Source: Tyzzerella sp.
GTDB taxonomy: Bacteria; Bacillota; Clostridia; Lachnospirales; Lachnospiraceae
Assembly (NCBI GenBank): GCA_017410145.1
Contig: JAFQRJ010000021.1
Span: 1-32,452 of the forward strand
Length of the DNA stretch: 32,452 nucleotides
Reading direction: 5' to 3'
The number at the start of each line of letters is the position of its first letter. Position 1 is the stretch's first letter. Below the pieces are notes generated by a model that did no database searches, was not told the origin of the DNA, and saw only the letters and a program-made list of their open reading frames with translations. The position numbers and the translations under genes are program-made. Positions 2,534 through 4,622 of this stretch are shown piece by piece.

Positions 2534-3295
2534 ATGAAACAATTAAATGAAAAAGTTGCTATTGTGACAGGTGCAGGTCAAGGAATCGGAAAAGGTATTG
2601 CACTCTGTCTTGCTAAGAGAGGCGTCAAGGTTGTGTGTACAGGAAGAAGACCGGAACCAATCGAAGAAACTGTAGCAGAAATCAAGGCTGTTGGTGGCGA
2701 AGCTTTTGCCATGACTTGTGACTCTGCTGACCGTGCACGCGTGAAAGAAGTTGTAGCAAAGACAGTAGAAACTTACGGCACTGTAGATGTTGTGGTAAAC
2801 AATGCGCAGGCAGTTGCGAAATCCATGCCTGTGGAAGAAGTTACATATGATTTAATGTATCTTGCATGGTCTACAGGAACCATTGGCTCACTCAACTTTA
2901 TGCAGGAATGTTTCCCATATATGAAGGAACAGGGCGAAGGTCGTATCATCAACTTTGCATCCGCTACCGGTATGTTCGGATACGCCGGTAACCTTGCATA
3001 TGGTTCTAACAAAGAAGCGATTCGTGGGCTTACCAAGATTGCTGCTAAGGAATGGGGACAATACGGTATCTGCGTAAACTGTGTACTTCCTGGTGCAGAA
3101 TCTCCTGCTGCAAAAGAATGGGCTAAGAAATTCCCGGAAAAATACAATGCAATATTAATGCAACAGCCAATGCGTCGCCTAGGCGATTCGGAAAATGATA
3201 TTGCACCGGTTATTGCATTCCTCGCAGGACCGGATTCATGCTACTATTCCGGACAATGTATGTTGCTTGACGGTGCATATTCTATCGCACCATAA
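2534..3295 (+). CDS. SDR-family NAD(P)-dependent oxidoreductase
   Basis: A 253-aa classical short-chain dehydrogenase/reductase, cytosolic. It has the Rossmann motif TGAGQGIG (12-19), NNAQ (89-92) instead of the usual NNAG, catalytic S143, and YGSNK with Y156 and K160. The region where the classical catalytic Asn lies reads STGTIGS, so the fourth member of the N-S-Y-K tetrad seems absent. This is seen in a subfamily of hydroxysteroid or sugar-type SDRs but is atypical for FabG. 'TGRR' after beta-2 suggests a preference for NADP, since basic residues can bind the 2'-phosphate. The substrate is unknown. The start has a near-ideal AAAGGAGG site. It stands alone with its own terminator (3320-3358). 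FabG, glucose dehydrogenase and hydroxysteroid dehydrogenase are all possible roles; none is supported by context. Confidence 0.85.
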   Translation: MKQLNEKVAIVTGAGQGIGKGIALCLAKRGVKVVCTGRRPEPIEETVAEIKAVGGEAFAMTCDSADRARVKEVVAKTVETYGTVDVVVNNAQAVAKSMPVEEVTYDLMYLAWSTGTIGSLNFMQECFPYMKEQGEGRIINFASATGMFGYAGNLAYGSNKEAIRGLTKIAAKEWGQYGICVNCVLPGAESPAAKEWAKKFPEKYNAILMQQPMRRLGDSENDIAPVIAFLAGPDSCYYSGQCMLLDGAYSIAP

Positions 3296-3319
3296 TTAAT
3301 ACGGACTATGTTCAGAAAC

Positions 3320-3358
3320 AATGGGATTGCAGATTGATATGCAGTCCCATTATCTTTT
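3320..3358 (+). terminator. Terminator of the SDR gene, abutting the foldback element
   Basis: A 12-bp stem (AATGGGATTGCA paired with TGCAGTCCCATT, one T-G wobble) has loop GATTGATA and is followed by ATCTTTT. The foldback element begins right at the end of this T tract. Confidence 0.7.
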
Positions 3359-3901
3359 GGCTCTACAACAAATGTTGGGGTGTGGGCCGGTGCTTAATCT
3401 TGGCATTGAAGGATGTAGTGTTTGCTGCATCTTTTTCTTATGCAAGCAAGTATTCAAAAAAACAAGAGTTTCTAAGATGCCCATTTCACAGAAGCTATTA
3501 CACATATAAAAAGCAAACTCACAGCCCGTGTTTCTAGCTATATTATGTATGAGAAAACATTGAAAGATTCTATAGAAAGTCTTGCAACTGCAGTTCAGAA
3601 AATGTGATAGCGCGGCAAATTGTTTGAGCTTGCGAGTTTTTGAGGCGCTATCATAATCACATCTCTGAACGCAGTTGCCTAGCCTTTCTAGAATCTTTCA
3701 CCTTGTTGGAAAAGACATAATATAGCTAGAAACACGGGCTGCTCAAACATGCTTTTTATAAGTGACTTTTATTGAAATGGGCATCTAAGAAACACTAAGT
3801 TCCTTGCATATGCTTGCATAAAAAAAGATGTGCAACACACACATCCTCTTCCTTTCTAAGCGCTATGCACCGGCCCACACCCCAACATTTGTTGTAGAGC
3901 C
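3359..3901. mobile_element. 543-bp foldback MITE with ISL3-like ends
   Basis: The two halves are inverted copies of each other. The outer arms are a perfect 37-bp inverted repeat (3357-3393 against 3867-3903) starting GGCTCTACAACAAATG. Further in, perfect blocks recur in mirror order: AGATGCCCATTTCA (3475-3488 against 3773-3786), a 27-bp block (3522-3548 against 3715-3741), and the apex GATAGCGC/GCGCTATC. The direct flanks are tATCTTTT (3351-3358) and aATCTTTT (3902-3909), a 7/8 match to an 8-bp target duplication. A GGCTCT terminus and 8-bp duplication fit the ISL3 family, so I infer a non-autonomous ISL3-type element. There is no transposase or plausible ORF inside. As RNA it would fold into one hairpin about 250 bp long. 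Confidence 0.75.
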
Positions 3902-3921
3902 AATCTTTTTCAGAAAATATA

Positions 3922-3951
3922 TTGTCAACTTTCACTTCATTGTGCTAAAAT
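3922..3951 (+). promoter_or_regulatory. Promoter of pduL-yqeY
   Basis: TTGTCA (3922-3927), an 18-bp spacer and TAAAAT (3946-3951), with an extended -10 TG at 3943-3944. It lies 30 bp upstream of the pduL ATG and immediately right of the foldback element. Confidence 0.5.
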
Positions 3952-3980
3952 ATACGCATTATCGAAGTAGAGGTAAGAAT

Positions 3981-4622
3981 ATGAGTCTGAAAATCCCAAT
4001 TGAGACTTCTGCAAGGCACGTACATGTCTGCGAAGAAGATTTTAAAAAATTATTTGGCGAAGATGCAGAGTTGACCTATGTACATGAATTAAGTCAGCCG
4101 GGGCAATATCTATGCAAAGAGCGTGTTACAATTGTTGGCCCACGAGGCAAATTCGAAAATGTTGCCATACTCGGCCCTTATCGTAAGGAAACCCAGATTG
4201 AATTATCTATGACCGATACAAGAAAAATCGGTGTTTCGGGCGTAATTCGTCAATCCGGGTATATAGATGGCACTCCGGGTTGCTCATTAATAGGACCTGC
4301 TGGAAGTATTGAATTGGAAAAGGGCGTAATTGTTGCCAAGCGACATATACATATGACTCCACTAGAAGCAAGCCGTGCACGTGTACGGGATAACGATGAA
4401 GTATTTGTTATCACAGAAAGTTACGAACGCGGACTGATTTTTGCAGACGTGGTTGTTCGTGTGAGTCCATCTTTTAAACTTGCAATGCATGTTGATACAG
4501 ATGAAGCAAATGCGTTCGCCAGCGATGTGTCGCCAACCGGTGCCATACTTAAACTGTTCGATGGACAGACCTATAGCCTGCAACAATGGGCTGATGAGAT
4601 TCAATCAGGAATCAATCGATAA
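3981..4622 (+). CDS. pduL: Phosphate propanoyltransferase (PduL-type phosphotransacylase)
   Basis: Interconverts an acyl-CoA (propanoyl- or acetyl-CoA) plus phosphate with the acyl phosphate and CoA, feeding acyl-phosphate to a kinase for ATP. The 213-aa product has the two PduL barrels with metal ligands: H13 and H15 in ARHVHV, and H122 and H124 in AKRHIHM. The C-terminal MHVDTDEAN (169-177) is the third family signature. It starts directly at the first barrel (MSLKIPIETSARHVHV), with no amphipathic encapsulation peptide, so it is likely a cytosolic stand-alone enzyme rather than a microcompartment one. An upstream in-frame ATG at 3828 lies in the foldback element and is not credible; ATG 3981 has AGAGG before it. 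yqeY follows after 19 bp. Confidence 0.88.
   Translation: MSLKIPIETSARHVHVCEEDFKKLFGEDAELTYVHELSQPGQYLCKERVTIVGPRGKFENVAILGPYRKETQIELSMTDTRKIGVSGVIRQSGYIDGTPGCSLIGPAGSIELEKGVIVAKRHIHMTPLEASRARVRDNDEVFVITESYERGLIFADVVVRVSPSFKLAMHVDTDEANAFASDVSPTGAILKLFDGQTYSLQQWADEIQSGINR

Follow-up and report, generated by a model that had tools for sequence, protein, structure and literature searches.

The window, a stretch of 32,452 nucleotides from a Tyzzerella sp. contig, carries at positions 3359-3901 a foldback of 543 bp that forms one long imperfect inverted repeat. A short-chain dehydrogenase gene lies on one side of it and a phosphate propanoyltransferase gene on the other. A terminator-like hairpin (3320-3351) precedes it, and the element is inserted in that hairpin's T tract. 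It encloses no ORF of at least 80 aa. In its longest ORF reading (3828-4622), the phosphate propanoyltransferase gene has its start inside the element; the family match was found from a start at 3981. Features are listed below with window coordinates and strand.

3320..3351, + strand: intrinsic-terminator-like hairpin 3' of the short-chain dehydrogenase gene (consensus scan only)
3351..3358, no strand: left copy of the target duplication, TATCTTTT, matching the right copy at 7/8 positions
3359..3901, no strand: whole foldback element, read as a non-autonomous transposon from its fold and a second copy at G000:C31:59986-60446
3359..3393, + strand: left terminal inverted repeat, beginning GGCTCTACAACAAATGTTGGGG; its first 22 bp occur in 4/10 genus genomes
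3522..3548, + strand: left side of a 27-bp perfect inner stem block, partner 3715-3741
3558..3701, + strand: conserved core (covariance model R1), from a 17-sequence alignment with 20/35 pairs compensated
3599..3604, + strand: A-rich 5' side of an internal loop, AAAATG, conserved and facing TAATCACATCT at 3654-3664
3605..3613, + strand: left strand of the tip stem, TGATAGCGC, pairing with 3645-3653
3614..3644, + strand: conserved apical loop reading GGCAAATTGTTTGAGC-TT-GCGAGTTTTTGAG, which is a variant form of wide motif TGTYTGAGCGNAGCGAGTTT
3645..3653, + strand: right strand of the tip stem, GCGCTATCA, pairing with 3605-3613
3715..3741, + strand: right side of the 27-bp perfect inner stem block, partner 3522-3548
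3867..3901, - strand: right terminal inverted repeat, complementary to the left repeat
3902..3909, no strand: right copy of the target duplication, AATCTTTT, matching the left copy at 7/8 positions

A sequence-only reading of this DNA had described nearly the entire 543 bp as an imperfect inverted repeat, and folding agreed: the predicted RNA minimum free energy was -281.7 kcal/mol; shuffled sequences averaged -130.6 (sd 6.4), which gives z -23.7, and none of 100 shuffles equalled it. The arms at 3357-3396 and 3864-3903 are 98% complementary across 40 nt. The 27-bp inner block, the GGCTCT ends and the 7/8 target duplication of that reading are all present. Its 37-bp perfect outer arm is 35 bp long inside the element (3359-3393/3867-3901), but reaches 37 when the flanking bases 3357-3358 and 3902-3903 are counted.

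The genome of origin (G000) is an incomplete assembly of 1.89 Mb, 68% complete, in which repeats are likely collapsed. It holds a second copy at C31:59986-60446, 89% identical to the window element over ~440 bases, and a solo end at C5:149644-149665; the element is thus not single-copy in its own genome. The C31 copy has a perfect 8-bp duplication (GTTTTAAT, 8/8) and a deletion that leaves one arm short by about 100 bases. It is located after a purD-like gene and, by eye, a terminator-like stem precedes it too. With up to two mismatches allowed, the first 22 bp of the window end were present in 4 of 10 genus genomes, its own included, and one relative (G003) carries a 656-bp foldback (locus L191) with GGCTCT-type window ends and a 7/8 duplication.

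The window element has several features of a MITE: terminal inverted repeats, a target-site duplication, more than one copy and no transposase gene. This bears out the earlier description of it as MITE-like, and from these comparisons the element is best read as a non-autonomous transposon. Six relatives with the downstream gene have no element or long foldback upstream of it at the locus compared, but the upstream gene is missing from that locus as well, and no strict empty site was found among them. The phage and plasmid collections contained no DNA resembling the window element.

The hairpin core and the ends around it

A DNA search with the element returned matches in 6 of 10 genus genomes, its own included. 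In the other genomes, long matches fall on the tip and three short ones (33-37 bases) on an end; G005 has a single match, to 28 bases of stem, and no foldback is present there. Of 25 loci examined, 15 carry foldbacks ranging from about 210 to 1058 bp, nine have none or only a short one, and one (L023) has a foldback of 127 bp that is cut off by a contig end. Several foldback-poor loci end at contig ends; L026, in mid-contig, has a core match without a foldback call.

Alignment of 17 tip sequences gave 35 predicted pairs, and at 20 of these at least one sequence had changed on both sides and still paired. The innermost stem could be parsed in 18 of 20 copies and is spelled by 13 different strings, some differing just in length; it has 6 to 15 perfect pairs in 17 parsed copies and only a 5-bp run in L025. 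The GCGNAGC region is variable in genus copies, reading GT-GAA-AC in L014, CC-GCA-GG in L015 and others, with a TT loop in the window.

The conserved unit between species is the tip, not the ends, a feature that the sequence-only reading had missed. GGCTCT ends are found on the window copy, the C31 copy and L191, and GTAAC ends on L029 and the copies in genome G055. Four elements (L013, L019, L025 and L028) have a TGTTGCAAAA end without a clear duplication, and further end types occur at L008, with just 6 bp repeated at its ends, and at L010 and L014, with no repeat as delimited. Duplications of 8/8 accompany L029 (AATGGCAG) and, in G055, L053, L058, L061 and L065; L063 has 7/8 and L046 6/8. 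In one set of relatives, six of eight elements (L013, L019, L025, L028, L010 and L014) have no clear 8-bp duplication as delimited. These alignments show that a hairpin core with a predicted, covarying fold and a conserved apical loop sits inside different ends.

We looked for transposases that might be associated with each type of end. The window termini had been called ISL3-like; the ISL3 family has GGCTCT termini and an 8-bp duplication, a description that both the window and C31 copies fit. The assignment of the window element to ISL3 is weak all the same, drawn from those ends and one weak protein match. That match is at L192 (G007), where a GGCTCTAAAATAAATGTTGGGG end is followed by a truncated ORF with sub-cut-off hits to Zn_ribbon_ISL3 (E 0.01) and the ISL3 model (E 0.089). 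PF01610 is absent from the window's own 68%-complete genome, the searches found neither an ISL3 element nor any autonomous partner that has the exact window ends, and the plasmid collection contained no match for the L192 ISL3-like end or its protein start.

The GTAAC ends may be tied to IS66 through L240, a 1396-bp element with GTAACAGTTCAG ends and an 8/8 duplication (ATAGAATT); it has a broken ORF whose hit to the IS66 model falls short of the cut-off (E 4.4e-8; 32.6 bits against 180). The same ORF matches the IS6 model at E 3.4e-5 and DUF6444 below cut-off. The TGTTGCAAAA ends may be IS6-like; no transposase was seen beside them, and we therefore leave them without a family.

Two kinds of element lack the tip. 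A 138-bp hairpin at G000:C1:7384-7521 (L241 1501-1638) has GTAACAGTTCAG/GTAACTGTTCAG ends and no conserved tip. Three elements in G003 (L283, L288 and L290), each about 360-380 bp long, derive from the TGTTGCAAAA-ended giant hairpin but have no core, and a similar internal deletion is seen in all of them; their existence means that the core was not needed for whatever spread them.

The apical motif beyond the genus

Covariance model R1 matched six genomes of the family besides its own among the 299 searched (E 2.5e-6 to 9.7e-4). Matches in other genera scored 33.5-45.7 bits and the wrong strand of genus cores 23.7-39.1 bits; these ranges overlap, so the model alone proves little outside the genus. 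Four of the six matches (L035, L037, L038 and L039) nevertheless contain exact TGTYTGAGCGNAGCGAGTTT, a string from which R1 was not built. By eye, L036 has two differences from TGTYTGAGCGNAGCGAGTTT, and L040 has only the GCGAAGC part. A pattern search of 100 family genomes gave 22 matches in seven genomes, against one match for the reversed control. By BLAST, 17 of these 22 loci are foldback apices, and three of the other five lie near contig ends.

In a collection of named genomes, at least 117 stretches contain TGTYTGAGCGNAGCGAGTTT, where about 4 would be expected by chance by our own arithmetic. Judged by record title, lineages among the matches listed include Bacteroidota, Pseudomonadota, Bacillota, Fusobacteriota, desulfobacterial genomes and others; viral contigs have the motif in six stretches. 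Because the motif served as the query for this set, its conserved positions are themselves no evidence, and what counts is the excess over chance and the flanks. Among the matches listed, the motif usually sits on a short hairpin: an inner stem of 6 bp or longer is present in 107 of 134 motif occurrences with flanks, compared with 1.8% of shuffled flank pairs (shuffles taken over all 161 motif occurrences). Folded together with 45 flanking bases on each side, 121 of 125 show one or more predicted pairs between the two flanks. In 24 of these, a 5' bulge of 4 or 5 bases forms the first internal loop; it is often ATCA or A-rich among the matches listed.

Mismatches in these stems are unevenly distributed between the strands. 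Read on the motif strand, 124 hairpins have G.T 130, A.C 75, G.A 275, T.C 41, A.A 86 and T.T 44. The 22 family hairpins have G.T 64, A.C 49 (p 0.19), G.A 97, T.C 40, T.T 46 and A.A 27, counts in which hairpins from one genus are not independent. The bias suggests that the motif strand is selected as a folded single strand, either ssDNA or RNA, two forms that the mismatch counts do not separate.

The wide motif TGTYTGAGCGNAGCGAGTTT contains the GCGNAGC of DNA mini-hairpins, a sequence that the motif search itself demanded. In one account, d(GCGNAGC) mini-hairpins consist of a GNA or GNNA loop closed by at least two G-C pairs, are unusually stable to heat and nucleases, and have been used as an aptamer add-on (PMC4686876). 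The window copy differs from the mini-hairpin of that account in having a TT loop instead of GNA.

Gene neighbourhoods of the motif loci (594 ORFs) revealed no partner that stood out in the 25 largest clusters: the first spans seven motif loci and resembles an ABC transporter by eye, and the others span two or three. Rfam gave no match at gathering score for 12 motif-bearing loci. A literature search with the motif strings returned, among the papers listed and judged by title, primer matches in unrelated work; figures and supplements were outside its scope, so absence from print is not proven.

The distribution of the tip bears on a rival account of the element, that of an ordinary MITE, with ends and filler, whose palindrome arose by a chance inverted duplication and whose tips are alike by descent without function. 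The duplications and transposon ends are what this account would predict, core-less derivatives are present in several copies, and the window copy is probably decaying (see below). We consider it unlikely all the same: the tip is conserved and covarying while arms and ends differ, and the same apical motif sits on hairpins in other phyla at a frequency far above that of shuffled flanks (107/134 vs 1.8%). Like bacterial MITEs with ISL3- or IS66-like ends, the element has terminal inverted repeats, an 8-bp duplication, more than one copy and no transposase gene; unlike them, it is almost all stem and has a conserved folded tip common to elements with different ends. The Thiomargarita MITEs (PMC4853749) are likewise long hairpin repeats across a bacterial genome, but have TATA-type ends and a group I intron link, neither of which is seen in the window element. 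A literature search on ISL3 and IS66 MITEs gave no match, and nothing on this element was found among the papers listed on long inverted repeats, MITEs and template switching, PMC6006769 included.

Pairing of the arms and models of movement

Comparisons between copies indicated how the arms change. In one genome, L191 142-515 matches L028 320-688 over a core of 375 alignment columns at 86% identity, leaving 141/141 and 319/318 bases unmatched on the two sides. L013 and L025 have in common the core and roughly 46 bp of end but differ in the stretch between; outside the core they have 344/345 and 172/172 bases respectively. Match limits are mirrored because each element is a palindrome. What the alignments do show is that both arms have been exchanged or altered together.

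We then counted base pairs that had changed on both sides and remained Watson-Crick. In L013/L019 there were 42 of 495 (shuffle mean 5.2, max 11), with 20 losses and 15 gains of pairing; in L010/L014, 11 of 146 (mean 1.2, max 5; losses 7, gains 7). Within the cores, L191/L028 had 7 of 157 (mean 0.7, max 3; losses 6, gains 2) and L013/L025 8 of 163 (mean 1.8, max 6; losses 9, gains 4). The 15 comparisons among the six G055 copies gave 5 to 22 compensated pairs vs 5 to 15 one-sided changes. Several of the elements compared are close relatives and not independent, so p-values would overstate the evidence. The arms do change together in relatives. The window and C31 copies had 3 compensated pairs of 167 (mean 0.5, max 3), with 16 one-sided losses and 5 gains; their difference is mainly loss of pairing, and the window copy looks old and is probably decaying.

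Mismatch types were then compared along the stem in 10 elements, a count that omits the C31 copy, one arm of which is partly deleted. In the outer arms, 107 of 1893 aligned pairs are mismatched (5.7%), with G.T 31 and A.C 33. The cores, up to 185 bases from the midpoint, have 249 in 1658 (15%), with G.T 53, A.C 41, A.A 40 and T.T 15; the G.T excess in the core within the genus (53/41) is not significant. Whole arms of 11 elements, with the C31 copy read in the opposite orientation, gave G.T 88 and A.C 78. The six G055 copies (L046, L053, L058, L061, L063 and L065) have two or three T.T mismatches each on the motif strand, by eye in TTAG/CTTA contexts, and these persist though most of the arms stay matched.

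If the stem were selected as RNA, G.U should exceed A.C on one strand. No such bias is seen in the outer arms, from which we infer arm-to-arm copying of DNA: such copying, combined with neutral decay, would give the mismatches observed. The sequence-only reading had taken the retained mirror blocks to suggest selection on the fold; that the outer stem is kept for an RNA is not supported, given the near-equality of G.T and A.C and the one-sided loss of pairs between the window and C31 copies.

These counts also weigh on the related proposal that the element is transcribed as a long-hairpin RNA, an RNase III substrate or regulatory RNA, with the stem selected for RNA pairing along its full length. 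The very strong predicted fold (z -23.7), the covarying core (20/35 pairs) and the G.U excess in the wide-motif hairpins (G.T 130, A.C 75) are what such an RNA would produce. They are outweighed by the G.T and A.C parity of the outer arms (31/33; 88/78 for whole arms of 11 elements), the one-sided losses between the window element and its sister copy, and arms that are wholly different between some copies. Rfam 15 gave no match at gathering score for window positions 3200-4100, only two microRNA-precursor models far beneath it. We regard a full-length RNA stem as quite improbable, and the regulatory-RNA idea, unsupported for the arms, may apply to the tip.

We favour, with moderate confidence, a non-autonomous transposon that consists of one long hairpin with a conserved tip and DNA-copied arms and that is moved in trans by DDE enzymes. 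On this model the outer arms would stay complementary when one is copied from the other, by template switching on an extruded hairpin. Such copying could also let a core gain new arms, and with them new transposon ends, on both sides. The tip would function in folded, single-stranded form, as ssDNA or RNA, and be recognised by a putative protein; DDE transposases that act in trans and recognise nothing but the ends would carry out the movement.

A bolder version of the transposon model can be put forward only tentatively. The tip may represent a phylum-spanning, undescribed class of folded single strand with its own putative binding protein, and may act as the seed that turns single insertion-sequence ends into giant-hairpin transposons by foldback arm copying. 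If this is true, one small folded DNA or RNA motif, covered by no family model tested here, is common to hairpins of Bacteroidota, Pseudomonadota, Bacillota, Fusobacteriota and other lineages. Elements in which arms and ends are exchanged around a constant tip would then show by what route long palindromes are rebuilt and persist in bacterial genomes.

Least probable is a REP-type element moved by a Y1 (RAYT) transposase that recognises the hairpin as ssDNA: the architecture is REP-like (stem, 5' bulge, structured apex and, at several loci, inverted pairs about 200-390 bp apart) and PF01797 is matched in four of seven motif-bearing family genomes, but PF01797 is absent from motif-bearing G046, G057 and G069 and from element-rich G006, is present in the element-free genus genomes G001, G007, G008 and G009, and the element has 8-bp duplications, which Y1 enzymes are not known to make. 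Among 24 motif-bearing genomes, 18 have PF01797 (48 matches); a check of some 1.5 kb around 30 of these, allowing up to two mismatches, found the motif beside none, and from this and the PF01797 distribution we rejected a RAYT/REP partnership.

Published REP families (PMC3733652) carry a GTAG or CGTC foot and, for the most part, short loops. The REP palindromes described there are, like the hairpins studied here, intergenic, sometimes in inverted pairs and found in several phyla. Ours differ from those in their 20-nt apical motif and in having no Y1 transposase beside the motif in the 30 loci tested; the window element has no GTAG or CGTC foot, and its family has giant arms and DDE-type ends.

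Some motif loci hold more than one hairpin. At L039 there are two separate long foldbacks, at 972-1349 and 1416-1732, with a gap of about 70 bp. Inverted pairs of motif hairpins, REP-dimer-like and spaced about 200-390 bp apart, occur at L072, L082, L094, L140, L146, L179, L180 and L182.
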